Shown here piece by piece: positions 32,413 through 46,573 of a stretch of 64,000 bases of DNA. Each line of letters begins with the position of its first letter. The first letter of the stretch is position 1. Both the position numbers and the translations under genes were made by a program. This stretch comes from Mixta hanseatica (GTDB lineage: Bacteria; Pseudomonadota; Gammaproteobacteria; Enterobacterales; Enterobacteriaceae), in contig NZ_CP082904.1 of assembly GCF_023517775.1 (NCBI RefSeq), positions 1,922,001 through 1,986,000 on the forward strand, written 5' to 3'. Below the pieces are notes generated by a model that did no database searches, had not been told where the DNA came from, and saw only the letters and a program-made list of their open reading frames with translations.

Positions 32413-33852
32413 TTACTTACTGCGTGCCGGATTGATCAGCCAGGTCCCGGCACGATTAATTTCCAGCTGCTGACTGTGTACGCCATCCTGCTGCTGGACT
32501 TCAATCAGGTAATGTCCTGCGGCCAGGTTCAGCGCCGCATAGCCATTATTGCTTGGCTTCACATCCAGCGTTTCCCCGTTCAGACTGACCGTTTCATTAC
32601 TGCGCAGGCGCAAATAGACCGTTGCCATCGTCGGGCCGCTGCCCTGCGGCTGCGGCTGCGCATTGGTCGCCGTGTTGCTCGCGCTGGCGGGGGTGGCGCT
32701 CTGCTTATCGCCGCCGCTGTTCACCAGCGCGGCGATAGCGATTACCGCCAGCAGGGCACCGCCGCTCAGTAAAATCAACGGCAGCGAAAGACGACGCGGC
32801 GCGCGCGGCGTTAACGGTTCGGCGCTGGATGCGCCGTGATTTACCGCCAGCACTACTGGCTCGGGCGTAGCCGCCATTTCCGGCTCTTTCTCTTTTTCCT
32901 TCTCCTGGACCGCATTCACCGCGCTTACCATCTGCTGGACATCGCTGACCGGTAGAGAAATCAGCGTCGCCAGCTCATCAACAGACTGCGGACGATCGGC
33001 AGGTTTCATCATCAGAGCGCGATCGACGGCATGCAGCAGCGACAGGGAATAGCCTGCGGGCTGACGCTGCGCCAGCGGCTGATAGTGATCCTCAATACAG
33101 CGCACCACGCTGGCCGGGGGCGGGCTGCCGGTGATCAGCGTATGCAGCACCGCGCCCAGCGCATAGATATCGGTCCAGGGGCCCTGATCGCTATCGGTCT
33201 CTTCGCTGTACTGTTCAATAGGCGCATAGCCCGGCTTCAGCATAATTTCCGTTTCATCGGAAAGGTTGCCGATCTCCTTGCGCGCCGAGCCGAAATCCAG
33301 CAGTACCGGCAGCTGGTTATCCTGAATCTGAATATTATCCAGCGCGATATCCCGATGCAGATAGCCTGCCTGATGGATGGTGCTGATCGCGCCAAACAGC
33401 GGCGGCAATAGCTGACGTATCCACTCTTCGTTAATGGTCTCGCGGTGCTGTTGTTGCCACGCCTTTAACGACATGCCGCTATACCAGAGCGTGCCCATAT
33501 AGGCGGTGCCGTTCTCTTCCCAGAAGCGCAGCACGTGCAGCAGCCCTGGGTGATTAAAGCGCGCCAGCAGGCGGGCTTCCTGGATAAAGCTCGTCAGCCC
33601 GGCGTTAAACAGCTTGCTAAATCGCTCGCTGCGCAGGCCAAGCGAAAGATCGTCATTACGTATCGCCAGCGACGCCGGCATATACTCTTTAATGGCGATG
33701 GTGCGCTCCAGCAAATGATCCCAGGCGCGGTAGACAATGCCAAAACCGCCGCCGCCAATCACATCCTTGATTTCAAATTCATTGAATCGATGACCCGCCG
33801 GGAGGGCGCCAGCCACCATATTCTGTTCTTCATTTGCCGACATAGTTACCAC
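32413..33852 (-). CDS. ppkA: Ser/Thr protein kinase, PpkA-like
   Basis: A 479-residue Hanks-type kinase. The glycine loop is IGGGGFGIV (residues ~32-40), Lys55 is in AIKEY, the catalytic HRD is at 166-168 (HRDIALDN) and DFG at 186-188, so it should be active. A charged linker leads to one membrane segment (~356-377) and a C-terminal periplasmic PEGA-like region (~410-465). In type VI secretion, PpkA phosphorylates the FHA protein to switch on assembly, and PppA reverses this; both partners are encoded just upstream. It is the last gene of the minus-strand cluster. Confidence 0.85.
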   Translation of the reverse strand: MVTMSANEEQNMVAGALPAGHRFNEFEIKDVIGGGGFGIVYRAWDHLLERTIAIKEYMPASLAIRNDDLSLGLRSERFSKLFNAGLTSFIQEARLLARFNHPGLLHVLRFWEENGTAYMGTLWYSGMSLKAWQQQHRETINEEWIRQLLPPLFGAISTIHQAGYLHRDIALDNIQIQDNQLPVLLDFGSARKEIGNLSDETEIMLKPGYAPIEQYSEETDSDQGPWTDIYALGAVLHTLITGSPPPASVVRCIEDHYQPLAQRQPAGYSLSLLHAVDRALMMKPADRPQSVDELATLISLPVSDVQQMVSAVNAVQEKEKEKEPEMAATPEPVVLAVNHGASSAEPLTPRAPRRLSLPLILLSGGALLAVIAIAALVNSGGDKQSATPASASNTATNAQPQPQGSGPTMATVYLRLRSNETVSLNGETLDVKPSNNGYAALNLAAGHYLIEVQQQDGVHSQQLEINRAGTWLINPARSK

Positions 33853-33897
33853 TCTCTGAGCGTTTACGGCCTGTTTACTGCAGGCACGCGCCTGCGT

Positions 33898-34878
33898 TTA
33901 ATTTAAGGTGCGGTATGCGCCAATCGCCGGATCGGCGAGGTCAGGATGCAGCACATCCACCAGCATAACGGTTATCTTTTGTTTGGCGGGCAGCATGCCT
34001 GCCCAGGCTTTGCGCACGGCGTTAACGCGCGCTCTGACCGCCGTTATATCCTGCGCCGCGCTTTTATCCATTTTCACCAGCAGCGTTCCGCTGAATTGCC
34101 AGACATGCAAATGGTTATCAAAGGGCAGGATCAGCCAGCTATCTTCGGCGTTGTCATTGGTCACTACCATGCGCTGATTATTGATATTCACCACGCTTAA
34201 GGCGACGCTGTCCGGTTTCAAACCAATTAGCGGATAGCCCTGCCAGAAGTTCACCTGCAGCGGTTCGCTTTTGCCGTCGCTCACCAGCGTTAACTCGCTG
34301 GCGCCTTCCAGCCACCCCTCGGTAGAGCAGCTCAGGTTGCGGTTATCCGGGATAAACAGCGACTGGCCGTTATCGTCCCACCAGGTGCGGAAGTGACAGC
34401 CGCCCGGCAGCTCAAAATGCTGCAGCGGTTCGCTATTCGCGGGGCGGGAAAGATCGAGCGGAGCGGCGTTATTGGCGTTAGCCGTCGCCGTCGCATCGGC
34501 GGTCACCACCGGCCGCCAGTTTTGCGCCTTTACCGCGGTTCCGCTGGCCAGCGCTGCGCCCTGGCTATCCATCATCTCCCACGGCAGCTCCTGCAGCTTG
34601 CCGCACTGGTTGGCCAGCAGCGTACCGACGCGCGGCAAAAAGGAGGTTAATACCGTTGAATCTTTACTTTCGCCGGAAACAATACGCAGATGCAGCGTAT
34701 CCTTACACCAGTCCTGCGGCGCATTGCTGGCGACATTATCGATAAAAACCTCCAGCGCCATGCTGGGGGAATAAACCACGCGATAGTTTTCTGCATGAAC
34801 GGCAGAGGCCATCAGCAGCGCGATAGCGCCGGGCAGCCCATATTTTACCGCACGCAGGCACTTGGTCAGCAATCTCAT
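33898..34878 (-). CDS. Exported protein of unknown function in the T6SS-like cluster
   Basis: A 326-residue protein with a cleavable signal peptide (hydrophobic stretch ending in SAVHA, cleavage before ENYRV) and no further membrane segments, hence probably periplasmic. It has four Cys, two near Trp-rich and CHFRTWW segments. I recognise no known domain. It lies between the phosphatase and kinase genes, 14 bp after pppA and 45 bp before ppkA, so it is in the same transcript and may act as the periplasmic partner of the kinase's outer domain. This role is an inference. Confidence 0.6.
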   Translation of the reverse strand: MRLLTKCLRAVKYGLPGAIALLMASAVHAENYRVVYSPSMALEVFIDNVASNAPQDWCKDTLHLRIVSGESKDSTVLTSFLPRVGTLLANQCGKLQELPWEMMDSQGAALASGTAVKAQNWRPVVTADATATANANNAAPLDLSRPANSEPLQHFELPGGCHFRTWWDDNGQSLFIPDNRNLSCSTEGWLEGASELTLVSDGKSEPLQVNFWQGYPLIGLKPDSVALSVVNINNQRMVVTNDNAEDSWLILPFDNHLHVWQFSGTLLVKMDKSAAQDITAVRARVNAVRKAWAGMLPAKQKITVMLVDVLHPDLADPAIGAYRTLN

Positions 34879-34892
34879 AACGCTCCTTGGAA

Positions 34893-35666
34893 TTAATCGC
34901 GAGGCGGCAACAGGCGTGCCGAATCAGCCAGTGACTGTAATAGGGTCGTTTCCTGCGGCGAACCGACCCAAACGGCGACGGCGCTCAGGTTATCGTTTTT
35001 ACGGGTTTTATCGATGGCCTGCTGCATCAGCGTTAACCACTCTTCGCAGCTGTTCACCATACGCAGCGCCTGCTCCATCTCAGCGGTCGCCAGATGGAGC
35101 CAAAAGCCGTCGCTGCATACCAGAAAGGCGTCGCCGTCCTCCAGCGTAATCACCTCGCTGTAACTGACCTCGCGCATCGTTTCAGCACCGAGCGCATTAT
35201 AAAGTAAATTACTGTTAATGCCGGTATTTTCGTAACCCGCATCCTTCATTCTTTGCGCCAGACTGTGGTCATGTGTGACCTGTTTCACATAGCCGCGCCG
35301 GAAATGATAAATGCGGCTATCGCCAGCGTGCGCCCACCATGCCAGCTGTTGCGCGCGGTCGATAAACAGCGCGGCAAGGGTGGTGCTCATGCGCTGTAAT
35401 TTCAGATTTATCTGCTGTGCCTCACGGATGGCGCGATCGCTTTTTTCAATCGCCTGACGGCTTTCCGGCATGCCAAACGGCTGAGACGCCAGCGTATCTA
35501 CCAGCGTATCGCAGGCGATGCGCGCCGCCTGTTCGCCGCCGGGCAGGCCGGCCACGCCATCACATACCACAAAACAGGCGTTGTGTTCGGTCAGCAGATG
35601 TCCTACCCGATCCTGATTGTTAGCGCGCTCGCCCTGTTGCGAGGTCATGGCAAAGGCGATATTCAT
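34893..35666 (-). CDS. pppA: PP2C-family protein phosphatase, PppA-like
   Basis: A 257-residue PPM/PP2C phosphatase. Metal-binding aspartates are in VCDGVAGLPGGEQAA and CSDGFWLH, with the central AGDSRIYHF motif. In type VI systems PppA dephosphorylates the FHA protein phosphorylated by PpkA and disassembles or redirects the apparatus. The start overlaps the tagH stop by four bases. The N-terminus (MNIAFAMTSQQGERANNQDR) is standard for the family. Confidence 0.88.
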   Translation of the reverse strand: MNIAFAMTSQQGERANNQDRVGHLLTEHNACFVVCDGVAGLPGGEQAARIACDTLVDTLASQPFGMPESRQAIEKSDRAIREAQQINLKLQRMSTTLAALFIDRAQQLAWWAHAGDSRIYHFRRGYVKQVTHDHSLAQRMKDAGYENTGINSNLLYNALGAETMREVSYSEVITLEDGDAFLVCSDGFWLHLATAEMEQALRMVNSCEEWLTLMQQAIDKTRKNDNLSAVAVWVGSPQETTLLQSLADSARLLPPRD

Positions 35667-36829
35667 TCGTTCTCCATTCGCGTCTGAGAGTCTTTATACT
35701 GATTCACTTCCATATCATAGGCGTGCAAAAAGGCCTCGCCGAATAGCGAATGAAAGTCATCTTCCAGCTCGCCGGCGGTGCGCTGGTAGCTGCGTATAAA
35801 GTAATCCCACAGCGCCGCTTTGCGATGCGCGGTAAAACGCATTTTCGGCAGTTGCCCATCCTGACGTGCGTTATCTTCCAGCCGCTGCGGATTAAACGAC
35901 TGCAGCATGGCGGCGATAATCGCGCGGATACCGGCGATCATGCCGAGCTGATGCGCCTGTAAATCGACCAGTGCGTCGCGTACCGCCTGTTCTGGCTGCA
36001 TAAAACCGGGCATCTGGCTCTGATACATCTGCATCAGCACCGTTTTGCCTGAGGGCAAAATCTTAAACGGATTGTTGGCTTCATTCAGGATCATGGTCAT
36101 TTCCGCCTTCACCCCGCGCTTGAGGATCGAGCGTGAAGAGAGCAGCGCGACCGTGCCCTGCGAAAACAGGCTCAGCATGCGGCCGGTCATCCGCATCTGC
36201 TCTTCGGTCAGGCCTTCTTTGCCATGATTATCCAGCCCCATGCCGTCCAGCAGCGCCTGGATTAGCCGCCCGTCGCTGCAGGGCGCCGCGCTTTCCGTAC
36301 GCTCGCTGTGATCGCGCGGCAGCGGATCGATATCCAGCCGGGCGCTGCTGTGCGAGTTGCTTCGGCTGGCGGTGCTCTCGGCGGCGGCCGGCTCCAGCGT
36401 GCTGGTCACCAGCGGCGACGTGTCATGCTGCGCCAGTCCCAGCGGATCGTCGGCGAGGGCGTGCTGTTGAAACAGGGAGAGCGGATCAAAGCTGCTGGCC
36501 AGATTCTCGCTGACGGTTTCATGGCGCGGATCGCGCACCTCAATCTGATATTCGCCAATGGTCAGGGTGTCGCCGTGCTGCAGTAACACCTGACTGTCAC
36601 GATCCAGCGGACGCCCGTTTAATACCACGGTGGTTACGCTGCCGCGATTGGTCAATCGACATTCACCCTGCGGGGAAATATGCACCACCGCCTGCAGGCG
36701 GGAAATGGCCCGCGCTTCATCCGGCAGGACTAAATCATTGTCCTGACTGCGGCCAATCGTGCCGCCGGGAGGTAAAAAGTCGACTGTTTGATGGGGCACG
36801 CCTGTCTGTTGCACAATGGTAAATCGCAT
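35663..36829 (-). CDS. tagH: T6SS-associated FHA-domain protein TagH
   Basis: A 388-residue protein with an N-terminal FHA domain (residues ~18-95, GRSQDNDLVLPD and ISRLQAVVH) that binds phosphothreonine. A low-complexity Ser/Pro-rich linker follows, then the C-terminal TagH-specific domain ending in DFHSLFGEAFLHAYDMEVNQ. In known systems it is the substrate of PpkA and PppA. Start set at the ATG at 36829 with AGGA upstream; an in-frame start 30 bases earlier overlaps the TagF gap. It is followed directly by the phosphatase. Confidence 0.87.
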   Translation of the reverse strand: MRFTIVQQTGVPHQTVDFLPPGGTIGRSQDNDLVLPDEARAISRLQAVVHISPQGECRLTNRGSVTTVVLNGRPLDRDSQVLLQHGDTLTIGEYQIEVRDPRHETVSENLASSFDPLSLFQQHALADDPLGLAQHDTSPLVTSTLEPAAAESTASRSNSHSSARLDIDPLPRDHSERTESAAPCSDGRLIQALLDGMGLDNHGKEGLTEEQMRMTGRMLSLFSQGTVALLSSRSILKRGVKAEMTMILNEANNPFKILPSGKTVLMQMYQSQMPGFMQPEQAVRDALVDLQAHQLGMIAGIRAIIAAMLQSFNPQRLEDNARQDGQLPKMRFTAHRKAALWDYFIRSYQRTAGELEDDFHSLFGEAFLHAYDMEVNQYKDSQTRMENE

Positions 36830-36865
36830 GATGATTCCTGCATCAAGAAGTCGGGACAAAAGGCA

Positions 36866-37561
36866 TTACTCAAACATCGGTGGATAAAGGCCGTTACGTC
36901 CCGGCTGCGCACCCGCCGCCGGGTTGAACAGTAGGGAAAAAAGCTGCGCATTTAAAATGCCGCTGTGCTTGTGGGTGGCGTGAGGAAATCCGTCGCAGCG
37001 GTTGCTCCACCAGTAGCTGATAAAATGCTGTGAGTTAAAGCGATCGGCGACTTCGCGCCAGCTTAAGGTGCAGGGCAGATCCTGATAGCCGATAACGTCC
37101 ATAATGGCGGAGCGTTGCTTTTCCGGTACCGGCAGCGGCGGCAACGCCAACAGATTTCCTTCCAGCGTATCAACCGGCTGCGGCTCGCGCACTGCCTGCC
37201 ACAAACAGCTTCCCAACTGACGATACCAGTCGCCGGCGATAATCAACTGCGCGGGATGCCACTGCTCAGGGGTAAACGTTTTTACCGCCACCAGCGGCCA
37301 GATGCGGCCCACGCGGTCGCGAGAGGGTAGCAGGCAGCCCATCTGAATGCGTTGAAAGCCGGGCGTCACCGGTATGATAAAGTTCCACACCGGCGCGCGC
37401 AGAAAAGCGTCCGCCGTGACTTTTTGCTGATGCCACTGGGAGATCCCCTGTTGAAACCAGTTGGACCATCCGGTGACCATGCTATCCGACAGCCGTCGCT
37501 GCAGGAAATCGCCGGTCACCGGTAGCTTGCCATACCAGCCGGGGGCTAATTTCTCCGCCAT
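36866..37561 (-). CDS. tagF: T6SS-associated protein TagF
   Basis: A 231-residue protein of the TagF/DUF2094 family, recognised by the N-terminal GWYGKLPVTGDFLQRRL and the PVWNF and WPLVAV segments. TagF is a post-translational repressor of type VI assembly in Pseudomonas, acting on the FHA protein. Start at ATG 37561 with a GAGGTAACG ribosome site; the long in-frame extension into tssM is not credible. Together with PpkA, PppA and TagH it makes a full phosphorylation-control module. Confidence 0.87.
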   Translation of the reverse strand: MAEKLAPGWYGKLPVTGDFLQRRLSDSMVTGWSNWFQQGISQWHQQKVTADAFLRAPVWNFIIPVTPGFQRIQMGCLLPSRDRVGRIWPLVAVKTFTPEQWHPAQLIIAGDWYRQLGSCLWQAVREPQPVDTLEGNLLALPPLPVPEKQRSAIMDVIGYQDLPCTLSWREVADRFNSQHFISYWWSNRCDGFPHATHKHSGILNAQLFSLLFNPAAGAQPGRNGLYPPMFE

Positions 37562-37571
37562 AACCGTTACC

Positions 37572-39686
37572 TCACTGATGCCGATTGCCCGCTTGCTGCG
37601 TGGATGCTGCGGACGCGGTCGCAAACTGTTTGCCGTCCGCCGTCGAATCCGCCAGGCTGGCCGCCAGCTTGCGCATAAGTAATGCGTTGTCGCGAGCGAA
37701 GGGCGACGACTGAATCTGCCGGTCCAGCAGCTGGCTAAGGTGCCAGTCAAGCTGCTGAAGATCGTGCGTGGTGACGCTCGGCGGCAGGGTACGCTGTAAG
37801 TTTTGCATCAACCAGCCGCGCAGGAACTCGCCGTCGTAATTGCGCGGCTGATAGAGCATTTGATAGGCGCGCAGGGCATTACGGCTAAATTCGCTGTCAT
37901 CGCCTTTGTCGCTGCCGAGGATCCGCGTGATTTCCTGCGCGACGCGCGGCAGCAGCAGCGACTTCAGCGCATTCTGGTACAGCACCCAGGCCGCGTCGCT
38001 AACCTGATCGCCGCGATAGAGCCCGGCGCGCATGCTAAGCGGCGGGCTATCCAGCGAGAAGCTCTCTACCTGCGGCAACTTCACCAGGCTATTCAAATAG
38101 GGTAGCAGATCGAAAATGGTGCCGGCGTTTTGTCGGGCAAGTTCCTCGCCCTGATGTGTCAACGGCGGGACGCGCTGCGCAATTTGCTGAAGATAGTGCT
38201 GGTTTTGCACGTAGCTGGTAAACCACAGGCCGCAGGCCAGCAGTAGCCCGGCGGCCATCGCGCCCCAGGCGGCCCAGTGCAACAGTCGATTACGATCTTC
38301 CCAACGACGATCGCTGCCGGCCAGGCCGCTCTCTTCAAAAATCAAATCGCTCAGCAGATGGCGAATAAAGTAGCTTTGCCCTTTATTGCCAGGGATCGGC
38401 GCGGCGCGGTTAACGCTATCCCAGGCGGCAATCGAATGCTCGCCGGTGCGCGGCAGCTGAAGCTTACGCGTGAGCTGCCCCATAATGCGATCGAACGGCA
38501 ACCCTTCCTGGGTGCCGCTGGTAAAGAACAGGCCGCGCGGCGACCAGGCGACCGCGCCGCCGACGGGAGAAAAAACAATATCCAGATACTCCGCCAGCAG
38601 CGGACGCAGCGAGGCGAACTCCTGCGGAAACAGGAAGCAATCGGCACGCTGTATCAGTTCGTTCTGCTGCGCCATCCGGTGCGCCACGTCATGCTGTAGC
38701 TGCTGTTGCAGCAGGGTGAACTGCTGCTCGAAATGGCGGTTAAGCGACGCGCCACCGTCGCGGTTCGGCTCCCAGGGAAAGGTAAAGCCCCAGATGCGAT
38801 CGCGCTGCTGCTTATCCAGCGTGGCGAAATAGCCCATAAAGCCTTTCAGCAGATCGGTTTTGGTCACCATGATATAGACCGGAAAGGCAATGCCGGTCTG
38901 CTGATGCAGCTCCTGCATGCGTTGACGCAGGGCGGTGGCCTGAGCATAGCGCGCCTCGGGAGCATCGCTCAGCAGGTCGGCCACGCTGATAGTCATGATT
39001 ACGCCGTTAATCGGCTGGCGCGCGCGATAGCGTTTCAGCAGGGCGATAAAGGTTTGCCATTCGCTGGCGTCACGTGCGCGCTGGCTCTCCTGCAGAGTAT
39101 AACGCCCGGCGGTATCCAGCAGCACGGCGCGATCGGTAAACCACCAGTCGCAGTGGCGCGTGCCGCCGATGCCGCGCACGGCGCTCTTGCCCAGGCTATC
39201 GGTTAACGGAAACTCCAGCCCGGAATTCAGCAACGCGGTGGTTTTACCGGCGCCCGGCGCGCCGACAATCATGTACCACGGCAGCTGATAGAGCCACGGC
39301 GCGCTATAACGCTGCCAGCGGCTGCCGTGACGCTTACGGCCAAACTGCGCTTTTTTCAGCAGGGCAATGGCTTCGTTAAAGCGATCGGTAAGCATGCTTT
39401 CCGTCGCCTGCTGCTCCGCCGGATCGAGCATCGCCTGCTGCTGTAGGTTGGTCAGCAGACGATTATTAAACCAGGCGTTATACAGGCGGGGGATCAGCTG
39501 CATCAGGATCCAGAAAAAATAGCCGAGGCCCATGACCAGCTGACGATTAAATACCGGCTCCAGCGGGCGCGTATCGTTAAACACCAGCAGCGGGCCGACA
39601 ATCCAGACCAGGCAGGCAAAGGCGCTGATGCCGATAAAGCCCCAGACCAGGCGACTGGCGAGCAACGGGGGCCAGACTTTCTTCAT
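37572..39686 (-). CDS. tssM: TssM (IcmF)-like protein, short form
   Basis: A 704-residue inner-membrane ATPase-like protein. It has two N-terminal membrane segments (~14-35 and ~48-66), an IcmF cytoplasmic domain with Walker A GAPGAGKTT (142-150), and a third membrane segment around residue 475-495. TssM proteins are normally ~1100-1200 residues; here the large C-terminal periplasmic part that contacts TssJ is mostly missing, with an ending in a Ser/Ala/Gln-rich tail. No frameshift remnant follows, because tagF begins 11 bp later, so the short form looks native. Its start overlaps the tssL stop. Confidence 0.85.
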   Translation of the reverse strand: MKKVWPPLLASRLVWGFIGISAFACLVWIVGPLLVFNDTRPLEPVFNRQLVMGLGYFFWILMQLIPRLYNAWFNNRLLTNLQQQAMLDPAEQQATESMLTDRFNEAIALLKKAQFGRKRHGSRWQRYSAPWLYQLPWYMIVGAPGAGKTTALLNSGLEFPLTDSLGKSAVRGIGGTRHCDWWFTDRAVLLDTAGRYTLQESQRARDASEWQTFIALLKRYRARQPINGVIMTISVADLLSDAPEARYAQATALRQRMQELHQQTGIAFPVYIMVTKTDLLKGFMGYFATLDKQQRDRIWGFTFPWEPNRDGGASLNRHFEQQFTLLQQQLQHDVAHRMAQQNELIQRADCFLFPQEFASLRPLLAEYLDIVFSPVGGAVAWSPRGLFFTSGTQEGLPFDRIMGQLTRKLQLPRTGEHSIAAWDSVNRAAPIPGNKGQSYFIRHLLSDLIFEESGLAGSDRRWEDRNRLLHWAAWGAMAAGLLLACGLWFTSYVQNQHYLQQIAQRVPPLTHQGEELARQNAGTIFDLLPYLNSLVKLPQVESFSLDSPPLSMRAGLYRGDQVSDAAWVLYQNALKSLLLPRVAQEITRILGSDKGDDSEFSRNALRAYQMLYQPRNYDGEFLRGWLMQNLQRTLPPSVTTHDLQQLDWHLSQLLDRQIQSSPFARDNALLMRKLAASLADSTADGKQFATASAASTQQAGNRHQ

Positions 39687-40906
39687 TACGGCTTCTCCTT
39701 GTGCGCTGGGTTCGCCGGAGCCGGCGCGGCGAACAGCGTAATTTCAATACGGCGATTGCGGGCGCGATTCTCTTCGCTGTCGTTCGGCAGCAGCGGCTCG
39801 CTATCGCCGCGTCCCTCGGCCTTCACCTGATGGCCGGCGCTCAGCTGCTGGTTCAGCAGGGCGGTCACCGCTTTGGCACGCGCCAGCGAATATTCATAGC
39901 TGGAGGGGAAACGGTTATTGCGCGGTACACGATTATCGGTATAGGCCGAAACCAGCAGGGTGCCTTTAATATCCTGCGCCGCGGCGGCCACGCGCATCAA
40001 CAAAGCGCGTCCGGAACTGCTTAACGCAGTTGCGCCCGGGGCGAAAAGTTTATCTGCGGGGAGAATAATCTTGCTGCCGAAAGGGCCGTCAGTGACTTCC
40101 AGCTGACCGGCGGCCAGCACATCGCTTAAGCGCTGGCGTAAATTAAGTAAGGACTGCGGCGTCGCCGCTCCGCGTGACAATGTCACTTCTGGCAACGGCG
40201 CCTGATAAATCGCGCGCAGCAACGGTTCGGCCTGGCTGCCCAGCCGCCAGTTCAGGCTGCTGTAAACCAGACCGGCAATTAAAGCGGTAATCAGCAAACA
40301 GCTCCAGAGCGGCACCGGCGGGCGCCAGAACTGGCTGGTCAATGGCCGCGCTTCCACCGTTACGCTGGCAGGCGCATCCTGGCTTTGACGGGTTTCGGCA
40401 ATCAGCTGTCCAAGGCGGGTGCGCAGGGTATCGCGTTGCTGACGGCCATTTTCCATGCCGCGATAGCGGCCTTCATAGCCCAGCAGCAGGCAGTAGTGAA
40501 TTACTTCCAGCAGCGCCAAATGCTGCGCCGGCATTTGCGACAGGCGGGAGAGCAGCTGGAAAAACTTTTCTCCGCCCCAGCTTTCGTTATGAAAGGTCAC
40601 CAGCAGACCGTTGCCCGACCAGACGCCGCGAATGCCCCATGGGGTCTGCGCCGCCGCCTCGTCCAGCGTGCTGCAAAGGCAGTAGCGCGCGCCGATAATG
40701 GTTTCGAACGGCAGGCCCGCCTGTTTGCAGCGGTTTTCAAACTGACGCACCTCTTCCACCAGCTGCAGGCGCAGCCCGGCTGGATCGTCATGGGTGGCAG
40801 CCATACGAATGTGCACAATGGTATTCAACAGCGGGGAGGCCGCTGCCAGTAATATATTATCCGTGCTCGTGTTGTATGCTTCACGGGCAGTATCTACAGG
40901 CGTCAT
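39686..40906 (-). CDS. tssL: TssL (DotU) with C-terminal OmpA-like peptidoglycan-binding domain
   Basis: A 406-residue protein. A cytoplasmic DotU domain (residues ~15-185, with CLCSTLDEAAAQTPWG) is followed by one membrane segment (~203-222) and a periplasmic OmpA-like domain (~285-395, with SLARAKAVTALL and ARNRRIEITL). Extended TssL proteins anchor the TssJLM envelope complex to the cell wall. It overlaps tssM by one base. TssK, TssJ and baseplate genes, usually adjacent, are not present. Confidence 0.9.
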   Translation of the reverse strand: MTPVDTAREAYNTSTDNILLAAASPLLNTIVHIRMAATHDDPAGLRLQLVEEVRQFENRCKQAGLPFETIIGARYCLCSTLDEAAAQTPWGIRGVWSGNGLLVTFHNESWGGEKFFQLLSRLSQMPAQHLALLEVIHYCLLLGYEGRYRGMENGRQQRDTLRTRLGQLIAETRQSQDAPASVTVEARPLTSQFWRPPVPLWSCLLITALIAGLVYSSLNWRLGSQAEPLLRAIYQAPLPEVTLSRGAATPQSLLNLRQRLSDVLAAGQLEVTDGPFGSKIILPADKLFAPGATALSSSGRALLMRVAAAAQDIKGTLLVSAYTDNRVPRNNRFPSSYEYSLARAKAVTALLNQQLSAGHQVKAEGRGDSEPLLPNDSEENRARNRRIEITLFAAPAPANPAHKEKP

Positions 40907-40991
40907 TGAATCACATTATTCCAGACCGAAAATATCCCATTTTCAGCAGTCATCAGGAGTTCCTGCCGGGCCAGGCACCGGCAGGCGTAGC

Positions 40992-41495
40992 TTAATCAAG
41001 GATCCAGGTTGCGGTATTGGCTTTGCGACAGGCTTTACTGGCGCCGCCGACATCGACACACACCTGCTGGCTGGCGCGGCGCGGACGCGGGCGGTCATTG
41101 CGCAGCGTTTGCTCGTAACGATCGCTGGGCACGCCGGCTTTCATCGGCACATAGCCGATAAGCTGCGTGTCATCCGGATCGGCGATCGCCAGCCAGCCAT
41201 TTTCCACCTTACCCAACACCTGGAAAGGCTTGCCGTTTTCCAGATAGCGCACCACTTTGCCGCCGTAGTCGGGCGTGGTCATCACCGATGCGTCATACAA
41301 TGCGCGGTAGCGCTCATCAACCGGCGTAAACTCGCCGGGCGCACTGACCGCATGACGATGAACCAGCGTCACGCCGTTGACGGTACTGCTGACCAGCGTA
41401 TCGTCATTGACGGGCGGCGCAGGGGGTTTACAGCCGGCAACGGTCATAACAGCGAGTAATGTCAGCGCGAAACGAATTTTCACTTTGATCCTCAC
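40992..41495 (-). CDS. SH3-like lipoprotein, first gene of the T6SS-like cluster
   Basis: A 167-residue lipoprotein precursor with a signal peptide and lipobox TVAGC (Cys ~22), proline-rich linker and an SH3-like domain (GKPFQVLGKVENGWLAIADP). The C-terminus is basic and contains three Cys. It is not an obvious TssJ, which has a different beta-sandwich fold. It lies 85 bp upstream of tssL on the same strand and is probably cotranscribed. An outer-membrane or cell-wall role is likely but unproven. Confidence 0.68.
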   Translation of the reverse strand: MRIKVKIRFALTLLAVMTVAGCKPPAPPVNDDTLVSSTVNGVTLVHRHAVSAPGEFTPVDERYRALYDASVMTTPDYGGKVVRYLENGKPFQVLGKVENGWLAIADPDDTQLIGYVPMKAGVPSDRYEQTLRNDRPRPRRASQQVCVDVGGASKACRKANTATWILD

Positions 41496-41869
41496 GATCT
41501 CATCAGATTATCTGGACAAAAGCCAGTGCCTGTAGCGCAGAGACGCGGCGGGCAAGCCTGAAGCTTGCCGTTCTGTGACGCGGCTGGCTGGAAAAATTGC
41601 TCAGATTTACAGAAAGATAAAACCAGGCTCAGTCTACCTGACACTTTTGAGAATTCAAACCATTGCGCGGGTCTGTTTCTCATGTTATTCGCCGCCGCGT
41701 CACCTCTGGGCGCATTAACGCGACGGCGGTCTCAGATAAGTCTCTGGCAAGTATAGACAGCAAAGCAGGCGTGGCGCAGGCTTAATGCAACACACGAAAA
41801 AAGAAATCGGGCGGAGAGAGAAAATTGCCCGACGGCAGAGAACGCCCGCCGGGCAAGCTATTTCAGAAT
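41496..41869. other. Intergenic region between the T6SS-like cluster and the chemoreceptor gene
   Basis: 374 bp. It must hold the promoter of the minus-strand T6SS-like cluster near 41500-41600, though no clear -35/-10 stands out. It also contains the chemoreceptor terminator at 41821-41856. Nothing else was seen. Confidence 0.6.
41821..41856 (-). terminator. Rho-independent terminator of the chemoreceptor gene
   Basis: On the minus strand TTGCCCGGCGG and CCGTCGGGCAA form an 11-bp stem with one mismatch, followed by TTTTC, 14 bp after the chemoreceptor stop. Confidence 0.78.
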
Positions 41870-43657
41870 TTACAGACGGAAATGGCCGGCGGTATCGGCC
41901 AGTTCGTTGGCCTGATATTTCAGCGCGCCGGCAGCGGCGGTGGATTCCACCACCAGTTCGGCGTTTTGTTGCACCATTTCATCCAGCTTACCGATCGCCA
42001 GATGAACCCCCTGAATGCCATGCAGCTGGGTTTCACTGGCCAGCGTAATGCCCTCCATAATGTCGGACACGCTGGCAACGCTGCTGACGATATCGTTCAT
42101 ACTTTCACCCGCCATACGCACATAGCGCGAGCCGGTCGCTACGCTTTGCGTGGTGCTGTCGATCAGCGTTTTGATCTCTTTCGCCGCCTGCGCGCTGCGC
42201 TGCGCCAGATTACGCACCTCACCGGCGACCACGGCAAAACCACGGCCCTGTTCGCCGGCGCGCGCCGCCTCAACCGCCGCGTTGAGCGCCAGGATATTGG
42301 TCTGGAAAGCGATACCGTCGATCACGCTGATAATATCGCCGATTTTGCCGGAGGCCTGTTCAATGGTTTCCATCGTGGCAATAACGCTGGAAACGACCTC
42401 GCCGCCGCGCCGCGCGGCTTCCGATGCGGAAGCCGCCTGCTGATTTGCCTGCATGGCCGACTGGGTGGACTGGGTCACCGACTGACTGATCGCGTCCATC
42501 GCGCTGACCGTTTCGCGCAGGTTATTGGCCGCCTGCTCGGTACGCCCGGAGAGATCGGCGTTGCCGCTGGCGATCTCATTGGCGGCGACCTGCACCGAGG
42601 CGCTGGCGTCGCGCAGCTGCGTCATCACCGTGGCCAGCTTATCGGTAAAGGCGTTAAAGGCGCTGGCGATTTGCGAAACCTCATCGTTGCCGTTCACCGG
42701 CAGGCGCTGAGTCAAATCGTCATCGCCAGAGCTGATAGCGCGCATCGCATCGCGAATCGACAGCAGGCGGCGCATCAGCGCGCCAATCAGCAGGCCAATT
42801 ACCAGCGCGGCGACCAGCACCAGCAGGATCAGCGAAACCGCCGAAGCGGAAAGCAGCGAATGCATACCGGCGTAAGCTTCCGCGCGATCCAGCGCCACCA
42901 CCAGATACCAGTCGGTACCGCTGACCGGCTTCGCCAGCAGCAGTTTATCCACGCCGTTCAGCTGCGCCGCAACCGGCGTCGCGCTGCTTAACAGTGCAGA
43001 GACATCAAGATCCGGCAGCAGGGCTTTCACCGGCTTCAGCGCCATGCCCGCATCGCTGGTGGTGACGATGGTGCCGTTTTTATCGATCAGCAGACCGCTG
43101 CTGGCGGGCGTCGGATGAATCGAGCCGACGTTTGCCACCACGCTATCCATCGCCACGTCGCCGGAGAGCACCGCCTGCAGCGTACCGTTCGCGATCACCG
43201 GCACGGCGAAGGCCACCACCAGTTTACCGCTGGTGACATCGACATAGGGCGGCGTCACTACTGGCTTTGCGGCGGCCTGCGCCTGCAAATACCATGGGCG
43301 GCCCGTAGGATCGAAATCGGGCGGAATACCGACCGCATCGGAAAATTTCGCCACTTTGCTGGCATAGCCGGCGTAGACGTTAGTAAAACCGCCTGCTGCG
43401 GCAATCTGCCGGAACGCCGGAACCGGGTCGGCGTCCAGCGCTACCGGCTGCAGCGAGGCGATCATGGCGGATTTACTGTTAACCCATTCAGCAATGGCGG
43501 CATTATGACTATCGGCCACCGCTTCCAGCGTGCTGGTAATTGAGCGCTGGTTATATTTCTCGGTGATTAGATAGTTCAGCGTGGCGTTAACCATTAACGC
43601 CACCACCACGCAGGCAGTAGTAATAGCAACAATACGGGCACGAATAGAAGAGAGCAT
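41870..43657 (-). CDS. Methyl-accepting chemotaxis protein with dCache sensor domain
   Basis: A 595-residue chemoreceptor. Membrane segment 1 (~8-30) is followed by a periplasmic dCache-type sensor (~35-270, with [11 protein letters not shown] and GVLLIDKNG-like [12 protein letters not shown]), membrane segment 2 (~272-298), HAMP, methylation helices and the conserved signalling tip [27 protein letters not shown]. dCache receptors usually bind amino acids or small organic acids. It ends in TAGHFRL without the NWETF CheR/CheB tether, so it depends on other receptors for methylation. The ligand is unknown; the adjacent nas genes may be coincidental. Confidence 0.92.
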
Positions 43658-43822: not shown

Positions 43823-45067
43823 ATGATGGAAAACACCACCAGTTATGCCTGGCGTTATTGGTTAGCGTCACGGGAAAGCGAACGGGTCGCGTTGCAGGCG
43901 CTGTTAAATAGCGAAGCGCTGCTGGAAGCGACGAGCGCCTTAATTCACGCTTTGCAGCGCGAACGCGGCATCTCCACGCTTTGGCTGTGCAGCGCTACCG
44001 AGCTCACGCCGCCACATCTGGTCACGCGGCAAGAGGAAGTGGATCAGGCGCTGGAGGCGATGCTGGCGCTGTTGCCGATGCCGGAAAAGCGCGCCGCCAG
44101 TGGTTTTTATGGCCGGGCGGCGCTGGCGCTGCAGGCATTGAGCGGGCTGGCGCCGCTGCGTGAGCAGGTGCGGCGGCGGCAGTTCTCCCATGGTGACGCG
44201 ATGCAGCAGTTCAGCGAACTGATACGGCATCTGCTACATCTGATCTTCGAGGCGGCGGATAACGGCAGTCACAGCATGTCGCGCGCGCTGCTGGCGCTGT
44301 TCAGCTTTATGCAGGGCAAAGAGCTGGCGGGACAGGAGCGAGCCACCGGCGCGGCGGGGTTTGCTGTCGGTCAGTTCAGCCAACAGGAGCGTCAGCAGCT
44401 GGTCACGCTGCTGGAGGGACAGGAGCGCTGTTTCACCGCCTTCTGCCAGTTTGCCGATGAGGAGAGCCTGCAGGCGTGGCGTGAGATGGCTGAAGCAGGA
44501 CGGGAAACGGAAAAGCTGCGGCGCATCGCCTGCAGCGGAATGAATGCGCGCGGCGCCGATGCGCAGCACTGGTTTCGGCTGCTCAGCGAGCGGTTGGACG
44601 GCATGAAGCGGATAGAAGCGCGCCTGCGGCGCCAGGTAATGCAGGTGTGCCGTGACGGCATCTCCCGGCTGGAAACCACCCACGCCACGCTGCCGCAGGC
44701 TACCGACAGGCAGGCGCTGGGCTACAGCCTGTACGTGGCGAACACGCCCTGGCTGGAAGAGGGTGGCATGCTGGACGCCGCTGGCATTGCGCCGCAGCTG
44801 GGGCGCTCGCTATTAACGCTAATAGAGAATCAGGCCCAGCGTTTGCAGGCGCAGAGCGATGAACTGGCGGCGATGCACGCCACGCTGGAAGAGCGTAAAG
44901 CGATCGATCGCGCCAAAGCGCTGCTGATGCAGCATCACCGGTGCGATGAGCCACAGGCCTGGCATACGCTGCGTAAAATGGCGATGGATCAAAATAAGCG
45001 GGTCGGCGAGATTGCCCGGGCGATGGTCGAAGTGGCTGCCGCCTTCTCGCTACCTCAAACCAGGTAG
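43823..45067 (+). CDS. nasR: NasR, nitrate/nitrite-responsive antiterminator
   Basis: A 414-residue protein with an N-terminal all-helical NIT sensor domain for nitrate and nitrite (residues ~35-290, QRERGISTLWL and a second four-helix part) and a C-terminal ANTAR RNA-binding domain (~345-405, LEERKAIDRAKALLMQHH). In Klebsiella, NasR bound to nitrate or nitrite prevents termination in the nasF leader. The leader structures needed for this lie directly downstream at 45199-45283. The two ATGs at 43823 and 43826 are both possible. The nasR 3' end overlaps nothing, but a putative NtrC site begins two bases after it. Confidence 0.94.
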   Translation: MMENTTSYAWRYWLASRESERVALQALLNSEALLEATSALIHALQRERGISTLWLCSATELTPPHLVTRQEEVDQALEAMLALLPMPEKRAASGFYGRAALALQALSGLAPLREQVRRRQFSHGDAMQQFSELIRHLLHLIFEAADNGSHSMSRALLALFSFMQGKELAGQERATGAAGFAVGQFSQQERQQLVTLLEGQERCFTAFCQFADEESLQAWREMAEAGRETEKLRRIACSGMNARGADAQHWFRLLSERLDGMKRIEARLRRQVMQVCRDGISRLETTHATLPQATDRQALGYSLYVANTPWLEEGGMLDAAGIAPQLGRSLLTLIENQAQRLQAQSDELAAMHATLEERKAIDRAKALLMQHHRCDEPQAWHTLRKMAMDQNKRVGEIARAMVEVAAAFSLPQTR

Positions 45068-45068
45068 C

Positions 45069-45085
45069 TGCACAATCAGCGTGCG
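45069..45085 (+). promoter_or_regulatory. Putative NtrC-binding dyad upstream of the nas operon
   Basis: TGCACAATCAGCGTGCG matches the NtrC dyad TGCAC-N7-GTGCA except at the last base. It starts two bases after the nasR stop and about 70 bp before the sigma-54 promoter. A second, shorter dyad (CGCAC CAGA GTGCG) is at 45094-45107. Confidence 0.58.
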
Positions 45086-45156
45086 CGCGCTGCCGCACCA
45101 GAGTGCGCCAAAGGGCGCCTTGACGCGTCACGGCGCGCCGAAAGCGGTATAAAAAC

Positions 45157-45173
45157 TGGCACGCTGCTTGCAA
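45157..45173 (+). promoter_or_regulatory. Sigma-54 promoter of the nas operon
   Basis: TGGCACGCTGCTTGCAA is a perfect match to TGGCACG-N4-TTGCA. Transcription should start near 45183, giving a leader of about 125 nt before nasF. This fits nitrogen (NtrC) control of nas operons in Klebsiella. Confidence 0.88.
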
Positions 45174-45198
45174 TATATTTACTACAACGTACGCATTT

Positions 45199-45283
45199 GT
45201 TTCGCCAACGGCGGTGAAGCGAGTGCTTTGGATAAAGGCGTCCGGTCGCAGGCTTACAGCCCGTGCGACGGACGCCTTTTTTT
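45199..45283 (+). promoter_or_regulatory. ANTAR-type dual-hexaloop leader with intrinsic terminator (NasR attenuator)
   Basis: Hairpin P1 pairs 45199-45206 with 45213-45220 around hexaloop AACGGC. Hairpin P2 pairs GGAT (45230-45233) with GTCC (45240-45243) around hexaloop AAAGGC. Both loops have A at position 1 and G at position 4, as in known ANTAR target RNAs. A terminator follows: 45234-45250 pairs with 45264-45280 with a single bulged G, ending in a T run to 45283. P2 shares bases 45234-45243 with the terminator stem, so the two are mutually exclusive, and NasR binding to P1-P2 would allow readthrough into nasF. Confidence 0.85.
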
Positions 45284-45307
45284 ATCTCTTTTTTCAGGAA
45301 CCACAGA

Positions 45308-46573
45308 ATGAGCAACGCGCGTTTTATGTCGTCACGTCGTCGTTTTCTCGTCGGTAGCGCCCTGGCAGCAGGCTGCGCTCTGGTGCCGGGGTTGGGCAGC
45401 GCGGTCTGGGCTGCCGGTTCTGACGCGCCAGAAAAGCCGCAGGTGCGCGTGGGCTTTATCCCGCTCACCGACTGCGCCCCGGTGGTAATGGCGGCGTTAA
45501 AAGGGTTCGATAAAAAGTACGGCATTAGCCTGCAGCCGTCGAAAGAAGCGAGCTGGGCGGCGGTGCGCGATAAGCTCGCCTCCGGCGAACTGGATGCCGC
45601 GCATGCCTTGTACGGCATGATCTATGGGCTGCATCTTGGCATTGCCGGGAAACAACAGGCGATGGCGAATCTGATGACCCTGAACAACAACGGCCAGGCA
45701 ATTACGCTCTCCAGCCAGCTGCGCGCGCAGGGCGTCCACGATGGCAACAGCCTGCAAAAGCGAGTAGCCGCCAGCGAGCCGGGCACCTTGCGCTTTGCCC
45801 ACACCTTTCCCACCGGCACGCACGCTATGTGGCTCTATTACTGGCTGGCCAGCGTGGGGATCGATCCCTTCCGCGACCTGCGGCTGCTGGTGGTGCCGCC
45901 GCCGCAGATGGTGATGAATATGAAAATCGGCAATATGAGCGGCTTCTGCGTCGGCGAGCCGTGGAATCAGCGCGCCATCCACGAGCAGGTCGGCTACACC
46001 GCCGTCACCAGTCAGCAGGTCTGGCCGGATCATCCGGAAAAAATCCTCGCCACCCGCGCCCAGTGGGTGAATGAGCACCCCAACACCGCCCGCGCCCTGA
46101 CCGCGGCGGTGCTGGACGCCGCTCGCTGGATCGATGCTTCAGACGATAACCGCCGGGAAACCGCGCGGGCGATTGCCGGGCGCGCATACCTTAATACCCA
46201 GCCGGAGGCGATTACCGGACGCATGCTCGGTCAGTATCAGGACGGGCTGGGGCGCAGCTGGCAGGATGAGCACGGCATGCAGTTTTTCCGCGACGGCGAG
46301 GTGAACTTCCCGTGGCTGTCGGATGGCATGTGGTTTTTAACCCAGCTGCAACGCTGGGGGCTGCTGAAGCAGCAGCCCGACTATCAGGCGGTGGCGCGCG
46401 CCATTAACCGCACCGACGTCTACCGCCAGGCCGCCAGCGCGGTCGGTAATATCCCGGTGCCGCAGAGTGAGATGCGGCGCAGCACGCTGATTGACGGCAG
46501 GGTCTGGGATGGCAGCAATCCTGCCGCCTGGGCTACCGATTTCGCCATTAAACGCCGAGGAGTCCCCGTATGA
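45308..46573 (+). CDS. nasF: Nitrate ABC transporter substrate-binding protein (NasF/NrtA)
   Basis: A 421-residue periplasmic binding protein. The N-terminus has a twin-arginine signal ([15 protein letters not shown]), so it is exported folded by Tat. The mature part matches NrtA-like proteins (VGFIPLTDCAPVVMA, GTHAMWLYYWL and GEPWNQRAI). It binds nitrate and probably nitrite and delivers it to NasED. Start at ATG 45308, 25 bp after the leader terminator, with AGGAACC upstream; in-frame codons inside the terminator hairpin are not credible. Confidence 0.93.
   Translation: MSNARFMSSRRRFLVGSALAAGCALVPGLGSAVWAAGSDAPEKPQVRVGFIPLTDCAPVVMAALKGFDKKYGISLQPSKEASWAAVRDKLASGELDAAHALYGMIYGLHLGIAGKQQAMANLMTLNNNGQAITLSSQLRAQGVHDGNSLQKRVAASEPGTLRFAHTFPTGTHAMWLYYWLASVGIDPFRDLRLLVVPPPQMVMNMKIGNMSGFCVGEPWNQRAIHEQVGYTAVTSQQVWPDHPEKILATRAQWVNEHPNTARALTAAVLDAARWIDASDDNRRETARAIAGRAYLNTQPEAITGRMLGQYQDGLGRSWQDEHGMQFFRDGEVNFPWLSDGMWFLTQLQRWGLLKQQPDYQAVARAINRTDVYRQAASAVGNIPVPQSEMRRSTLIDGRVWDGSNPAAWATDFAIKRRGVPV

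Follow-up and report, generated by a model that had tools for sequence, protein, structure and literature searches.

Can the envelope platform and control parts of a type VI secretion system (T6SS) serve a cell when no injection machine is linked to them? The question is raised by eight genes of Mixta hanseatica (assembly GCF_023517775.1), which lie on the minus strand at positions 32413-41495 of a 64,000-nt stretch of contig NZ_CP082904.1 (1,922,001-1,986,000) that was analysed as a whole and is called here the window. The genes, transcribed in the order tagV-tssL-tssM-tagF-tagH-pppA-rtkS-ppkA, are referred to as the module. With a confidence just short of even, we favour the reading that the module is a domesticated weaponless T6SS derivative, in which a TssL-TssM platform, set in the inner membrane and anchored to peptidoglycan, would bear a stand-alone Ser/Thr phospho-switch. 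Its direct support comes from the anatomy of the locus, its single clade, the conserved functional residues and RtkS-PpkA pair, purifying selection, and persistence in genomes without T6SS-1, the type of complete system found on the same contig.

Eight Intact Genes for a Platform and Its Control Circuit

A preliminary description, made from the sequence alone, had proposed an intact T6SS-like envelope and phosphorylation module. The frames of all eight genes are indeed open, several overlap or nearly touch, and the protein families are those it had claimed. The first gene, tagV (40992..41495, possibly starting at 41483 instead), encodes a lipoprotein with an SH3b-like domain, whose lipobox Cys and SH3b Trp are kept in 41/41 and 42/42 aligned rows, respectively (rows are module loci, defined below). 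NCBIfam model NF041850 (TagV) matches it over the full length at 207 bits, under the cut-off of 300 bits for formal membership, and from its domain and lipobox the product appears to be TagV-like. TssL (39686..40906) combines a DotU domain (Pfam, 218.5 bits) with an OmpA-like domain (39.9 bits) and reaches 109.2 bits with the long-form TssL model, under the cut-off of 139.8. Residues of the OmpA domain are invariant or nearly so in the module-locus alignment, which makes the proposed anchoring to the cell wall plausible. The tssM gene (37572..39686) is short: its product of 704 amino acids (aa) consists of the N-terminal NTPase part with a Walker A motif that is invariant (43/43), the C-terminal half is gone, and TIGR03348 (VI_IcmF) is covered only at positions 1-630 of 1168, with 629.9 bits vs. 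a cut-off of 388.15. A sequence search of PDB with the TssM of the module or of T6SS-1 gave no match.

TagF (36866..37564) was recognised by Pfam TagF_N (118.9 bits), and TagH, or Fha (35663..36829), by TIGR03354 (197.4 bits, cut-off 120.25). The latter has FHA and T6SS_FHA_C domains with a short linker, and its FHA residues are conserved (Arg 42/42, Ser 43/43, Asn 43/43). PppA (34893..35666) is a PP2C-type phosphatase (Pfam PP2C_2, 66.6 bits) with motif aspartates kept in 40-42 of 41-42 rows, and PpkA (32413..33843) is a membrane Ser/Thr kinase (Pfam Pkinase, 82.6 bits) with the catalytic Lys in 41/41 and the HRD and DFG motifs in 40/40 rows. Such residues have known roles in families of the kinase, phosphatase, FHA, P-loop, and OmpA kinds. 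All three members of the phosphorylation pathway, PpkA, PppA, and the FHA protein, are thus present with conserved functional residues. The true starts likely lie some codons inside the listed frames for tagF (37564), tagH (36829), rtkS (34848, GTG), and ppkA (33843).

The product of rtkS (33898..34848, listed frame to 34878) matched no Pfam or NCBIfam model at E 0.001. It is 45% identical to the product of the gene at the rtkS position of the genome's own T6SS-1, and its sequence matches a solved RtkS chain (PDB 9k0l, E 7.9e-40). An AlphaFold model (30 sequences, mean pLDDT 81.3, pTM 0.55) matched 11 PDB entries at E <=0.001. Each is an RtkS entry, the RtkS-PpkA complex 9k1u among them, and the periplasmic tail of the module PpkA matches the PpkA chain of the same complex (E 5.2e-17). 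Sequence, fold, and a linked kinase with an RtkS-binding tail agree: the protein is RtkS, the periplasmic partner of PpkA. The two proteins listed earlier simply as exported can now be named TagV, with a score below its family cut-off, and RtkS; the half-length TssM and the short TagH linker are additions to that account.

The Module Compared with T6SS-1 of the Same Genome

A search of the genome for a full T6SS with its own tssL and tssM, as the preliminary description had advised, located T6SS-1 on the same contig (about C1:701590-731962, C1 being this contig), carrying both. Its genes run tagV, tssJ, tssK, tssL, tssM, tagF, tssA, tssB, tssC, further genes with an Hcp-like one, and then tagH, pppA, rtkS, one unnamed frame, tssE, tssF, tssG, clpV, and ppkA. 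Eleven core genes score over the NCBIfam cut-offs (A, B, C, E, F, G, H, J, K, L via DotU models, and M), and the Hcp-like protein has 53.1 bits vs. a cut-off of 58.9. The module is colinear with this cluster except that three blocks (tssJ-K, tssA-D, and tssE-H) are absent and TssM has no C-terminal half. TssM is 1207 aa long in T6SS-1 vs. 704 aa in the module, with approximately 54% identity over the shared part. TagH measures 658 aa in T6SS-1 and 398 aa in the module.

The claim that no injection core is encoded here also held: with TssJ, K, A, B, C, F, G, and ClpV of T6SS-1 as queries no match was obtained in the window at E 1e-3, Hcp and VgrG not having been searched separately there. The C-terminal part of the T6SS-1 TssM, which links to TssJ and the outer membrane, likewise found no match in the window at E 1e-3, and from the T6SS core set the module has only TssL and the N-terminal part of TssM. 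The sole TssC and sole TssK matches of the whole genome are in T6SS-1. What has been lost are the parts that move or reach TssJ, and what has been kept are the platform and the control circuit. A recent split of one cluster, which would have counted against the idea of a separate module, was rejected, since T6SS-1 holds its own copies of tssL, tssM, tagF, tagH, pppA, rtkS, ppkA, and tagV.

A Single Clade That Persists in Genomes without T6SS-1

The best 80 of 194 relatives, kept in a contig scan, gave 78 loci, 43 of them module loci; among these 80 the closest named relative was Mixta theicola (95% for TssM). Once L094, a second Erwinia aphidicola contig with the same module, was left out, 42 named loci and the window made up 43 rows, and TssM has 674-706 aa in each of them (43/43). 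The occurrence of this module on two contigs of one E. aphidicola assembly (L051 and L094) is either a duplication or an assembly artefact. No TssJ, K, A, B, C, F, G, or ClpV match was observed in the 43 module loci at E 1e-8. The chaC gene adjoins ppkA in 40/43, the remaining three loci ending at a contig edge; L050, L070, and L092 are modules cut by a contig end. In a quickly built tree, whose long-branch warnings concern mainly the outgroups, the module TssM sequences of all 43 rows form a single clade (SH-aLRT 100, stem 0.83) beside the T6SS-1 clade. In the favoured reading, a T6SS-1-like cluster gave rise to the module a single time, ahead of the divergence of the Mixta, Pantoea, Winslowiella, and Erwinia lineages sampled, and the module retained only the envelope platform and the entire post-translational control circuit.

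Some entries of the survey call for comment. L049 (Enterobacter ludwigii EnVs2) and L070 (Enterobacter cancerogenus M004) have Pantoea-type modules, fall inside Pantoea in the TssM tree, and are probably mislabelled. L090 (Chryseobacterium sp. 18061) shares its enterobacterial T6SS-1 pattern with L091 (Citrobacter sp. 18056) and is probably mislabelled or contaminated. A second T6SS-1-like cluster, more distantly related and equipped with a TagV, TagH, PppA, and RtkS of its own (RtkS 31-33%), occurs in some Pantoea genomes (L095, L096, L099-L101).

A short TssM at at least 60% identity was found in 9/149 genomes drawn across the GTDB family. Within two genera, the module TssM is present in 91/98 genomes, a T6SS-1-type TssM in 56/98, and the module without T6SS-1 in 36. 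For the Pantoea genus (n=61) the numbers are 57, 32, and 25, and the reverse combination was not seen (0); for the Erwinia genus (n=37) an open module TssM is present in 34, T6SS-1 in 24, and the module without T6SS-1 in 11. The total of 91 includes damaged copies (G213, G221) and excludes a fragment of uncertain kind (G233) and the frameshifted TssM of G261, an Erwinia-genus genome that is the sole one with T6SS-1 and without an undamaged module TssM.

Of 48 module genomes, 26 have a T6SS-1-type TssK (frame-broken in one) at a post hoc cut-off of at least 48% identity and 22 do not, and the module TagH is the only TagH in 20/48. Two genomes, G156 and G187, were left out of both counts because they duplicate the places of G064 and G068. 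In 4/48, searches for TssC and TssK both came back empty (Pantoea latae, P. stewartii, P. eucrina Russ, and a metagenome bin, the last also with a second TagH fragment), L047 being left out of one search behind this count; no TssC was found in 6/57 Pantoea-genus module genomes.

Selection and Lesions

Ratios of nonsynonymous to synonymous substitution (dN/dS, NG86) were low irrespective of T6SS-1. For pairs both without T6SS-1 (19 loci given) the gene medians were 0.09-0.16 with a maximum of 0.37, and for pairs with T6SS-1 (21 loci given) 0.07-0.21 with a maximum of 0.32; L047, L056, L074, and pairs with dS outside 0.05-1.2 are left out of these lists. Three-point estimates for the own branch, genes taken together, were 0.094 for P. 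latae, 0.052 for P. eucrina Russ, and 0.061 for P. stewartii (without tagV), in which no TssC was found, and 0.073 for E. rhapontici and 0.042 for Pantoea RIT-PI-b.

For lesions we read all 57 Pantoea-genus modules and 35 from the Erwinia genus, nine of the latter as named loci. Two contigs end inside the module (G198, G243), leaving 55 assessable Pantoea-genus modules, and 48 of these have no lesion. The damaged ones are G197 (tssL, ppkA), G199 (pppA; ppkA cut by a contig end), G209 (several genes, Candidatus Pantoea haifensis), G213 and G221 (both tssM), G242 (tagV, P. stewartii), and G249 (tssL, P. wallisii). The tssL of P. wallisii (L056, L140) is frame-broken near residue 341 despite passing an 85% test and was counted as a lesion. 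In the Erwinia genus all eight genes are present in 31/35 modules, and four reduced modules (G250, G258, G261, G273) keep tssL, tssM, and tagF, with tagH too in G250 and G261. Stop flags in PppA of five Erwinia-genus loci (position 259/264) and in TssM of L182 (position 677/702) came from alignment past the natural end, and these genes were counted as intact; very short TagH frames at module loci were an artefact of query start overhang.

Frameshifts are therefore not frequent, and the earlier view that the cluster is not simply decaying agrees with the intact frames, low dN/dS, and conserved residues. The module is usually intact even where the matching T6SS has been lost, and therefore a job of its own is suggested.

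A Conserved Element Upstream of tagV

A non-coding element of about 40 nt (41631..41667, minus strand) is conserved across genera upstream of tagV, mostly 135-165 nt before the gene, and is common to Mixta, Winslowiella, Pantoea, and Erwinia. Its core was recovered with at most 9/31 mismatches in 42/43 module loci, the exception being L072, with 14 core mismatches, no better than background. Mean pairwise identity is 0.82-0.91 in the core vs. 0.27-0.33 in the outer flanks, the windows being aligned on the best core match, a choice biased towards the core. The element is single in the genome at <=3 mismatches, and a reversed control pattern gave none. It was not found in 29 T6SS-1 stretches, where the best match has 10-15 mismatches, and no promoter sharing with T6SS-1 was seen. 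The element is probably a promoter or operator.

Between 41480 and 41900 there was no consensus sigma-70 promoter and one weak terminator-like site, terminators being fewer than or like those in shuffles. Simple Rcs, CpxR, PhoP, and RpoN patterns gave no consistent match upstream of tagV. Rfam returned one match around the element, far under the gathering score (E 0.95) and on the opposite strand inside a chemoreceptor gene. The latter gene, directly upstream of tagV (41870-43657, minus strand), encodes a methyl-accepting chemotaxis receptor with dCache, HAMP, and MCP signal domains, and among named module loci it flanks only two Mixta loci, L037 and L092. Beyond it, a NIT/ANTAR nitrate-sensing regulator and an NMT1-like binding protein of the nitrate assimilation type (43823-46573, plus strand) are encoded, as they are near the module in many Pantoea loci. 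The window has no tRNA genes and only weak families of direct repeats.

What the Module Could Do

A stand-alone phospho-switch is proposed because the module has the control parts known from Agrobacterium and Serratia and none of the weapon. By analogy with those bacteria, periplasmic RtkS would take a signal and stabilise or activate PpkA, which would then phosphorylate TagH and/or the TssL N-terminus. The FHA domain of TagH would read phospho-threonine, and TagH would gather on TssL-TssM and overcome TagF, upon which the TssM NTPase would change state; PppA would reset the switch. Attachment to the cell wall may come from TagV together with the TssL OmpA domain, again as suggested by other bacteria. 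A broader proposal, for which our confidence lies visibly under one half, is that a T6SS trigger has turned into an independent signalling organ, working without a secretion machine, having its own control element, and outlasting its parent T6SS.

Several observations weigh against such independence. Some TssK occurs in 44/48 module genomes and some TssC in 51/61 Pantoea-genus genomes, and module genomes without T6SS-1 mostly own a different T6SS type. Lesions by T6SS state amount to 2/31 with T6SS-1, 2/19 with the other type only, and 3/5 where no TssC was found; they are commoner without TssC (3/5 vs. 4/50, one-sided Fisher p 0.012; 3/50 and p 0.007 before the P. wallisii tssL was counted), which speaks against full independence of the module. 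The excess may reflect general decay or draft errors, as the numbers are small and the species related. The four reduced Erwinia-genus modules, from genomes bearing T6SS-1, have no kinase, phosphatase, RtkS, or TagV. The low branch dN/dS may partly predate T6SS loss, the TssL N-terminus and the TagH linker are variable in the module alignment, and no phosphosite could be located.

In a less probable but live alternative, the module is an accessory controller of whatever T6SS is present, its kinase, phosphatase, FHA protein, and TagF acting in trans on T6SS-1 or on another type without these genes. Every part of the module belongs to the T6SS control repertoire and has a T6SS-1 paralogue, and the lesion enrichment without TssC fits. 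The available text of De Maayer 2011 (PMC3235180) also describes T6SS-3 as having no FHA, PpkA, and PppA genes, and we equate the other type seen here with T6SS-3 by inference. Against accessory control, 36 of the 91 module genomes have no T6SS-1, and two genomes in which no TssC was found retain the full set of eight undamaged genes. In two genomes read for the other T6SS type, that type carries a divergent TssM of its own, and in one of them also a TssL, and the idea that it borrows the module TssM was rejected for these two genomes. Moreover, dN/dS medians with T6SS-1 are not below those without, and the module kinase circuit is gone from four genomes that do have T6SS-1. Both possibilities raised by the preliminary description therefore stand in altered form: control of a T6SS elsewhere is weakened for T6SS-1 alone but gains from the lesion enrichment as service to some T6SS, and the independent kinase-phosphatase device is favoured by modules without T6SS-1 while the same enrichment where no sheath gene was found tells against it.

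It is improbable that the module is a decoy or brake, its half-length TssM and TssL mixing into the T6SS-1 membrane complex and TagF blocking assembly, so that firing is dampened. The module TssM does lack the half that links to TssJ (a role given in the available text of PMC7614798), it resembles the T6SS-1 TssM over the shared part, and overproduced TagF shuts down the Serratia T6SS according to the accessible portion of PMC6082577. Such a brake leaves upkeep in genomes without T6SS-1 unexplained, as well as retention of the kinase and RtkS. Very improbable is a functionless, slowly decaying remnant of a duplicated T6SS ("potentially non-functional" in the part available of De Maayer 2011, PMC3235180). 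It would account for the loss of most core genes, for the 3-4 genes left in four Erwinia-genus genomes, and for scattered lesions, but not for the recurrence of this eight-gene set, as a single clade, across several genera, nor for dN/dS values that lie mostly at 0.02-0.16 in close pairs, invariant catalytic residues, a conserved upstream element, and intact frames. Decay, and control of T6SS-1 alone, are both unlikely. Service to a different secretion machine, with TssM and TssL as its accessory IcmF/DotU pair in the manner of type IVB (Dot/Icm), hardly comes into question: the module TssL passes the NCBIfam type IVB IcmH/DotU model (141.8 bits vs. a cut-off of 50) and a truncated T4SS was raised in the available text of Shyntum 2014 (PMC3942780), but the T6SS-1 TssL passes the same model (146.3 bits), and the module TssM reaches only 56.8 bits vs. 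a cut-off of 1000 for type IVB IcmF, far exceeds the cut-off for T6SS TssM, and groups beside T6SS-1 in the tree.

T6SS control parts have so far been understood as servants of the injection machine. If circuit and platform persist under selection without it, TssL-TssM and the threonine phosphorylation pathway own a separate function, and the stand-alone phospho-switch, if real, offers a system for studying platform assembly without firing.

Comparison with Known Systems

The sources cited in this section are drawn on as far as their available text goes. In Serratia marcescens, RtkS stabilises PpkA, and PpkA phosphorylates Fha, which overcomes a TagF block on assembly of the membrane complex (Ostrowski 2018, PMC6082577); TagF binds Fha (PMC5995506). 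PpkA, PppA, Fha (TagH), TagF, and RtkS are all present in the module. The Serratia pathway controls sheath assembly of one T6SS, whereas no sheath or baseplate gene is linked to the module. In Agrobacterium tumefaciens, PpkA phosphorylates TssL, TssM changes state, and Fha is recruited (Lin 2014, PMC3953482). Kinase, platform, and reader are likewise among the parts kept here, but there is no linked Hcp or effector to load, and the TssL N-terminus is variable. TagV of S. marcescens allows some TssJ-independent firing and is a proposed peptidoglycan binder (PMC7614798); the module TagV resembles it as a lipoprotein with an SH3b domain and conserved Trp, and differs in its family-model score under the cut-off.

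That incomplete T6SS clusters are known in Pantoea and Erwinia, as the preliminary description had noted, is borne out in print (PMC3235180, PMC5561584, PMC3942780). The locus itself was described as "T6SS-2" of these genera and called partial and potentially non-functional (De Maayer 2011, PMC3235180), and was named PA T6SS-3 in P. ananatis, with strong selection inferred and its role given as unknown (Shyntum 2014, PMC3942780). In mutant work on E. amylovora it was left aside as incomplete (PMC5561584). No published functional test was recognised from titles and abstract starts, most subscription journals lying outside this search. Like the T6SS-2 locus, which is conserved across strains and was taken as a partial T6SS-1 duplication, the module is a syntenous set of eight genes, of which only four are T6SS-conserved, in a genome with a separate full T6SS-1, and belongs to this locus. 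The reduced Erwinia-genus modules G250, G258, G261, and G273 resemble the reduced loci of E. amylovora, E. pyrifoliae, and E. tasmaniensis in De Maayer 2011 (PMC3235180). The available text of both T6SS-2 papers does not name RtkS or TagV, the half-length TssM, or upkeep without T6SS-1. Our reading recasts a locus regarded as potentially non-functional, yet present in nearly all genomes examined of two genera. New compared with print are the half-length TssM of one clade, the near-invariant residues, upkeep without T6SS-1 and low dN/dS there, and the upstream element.

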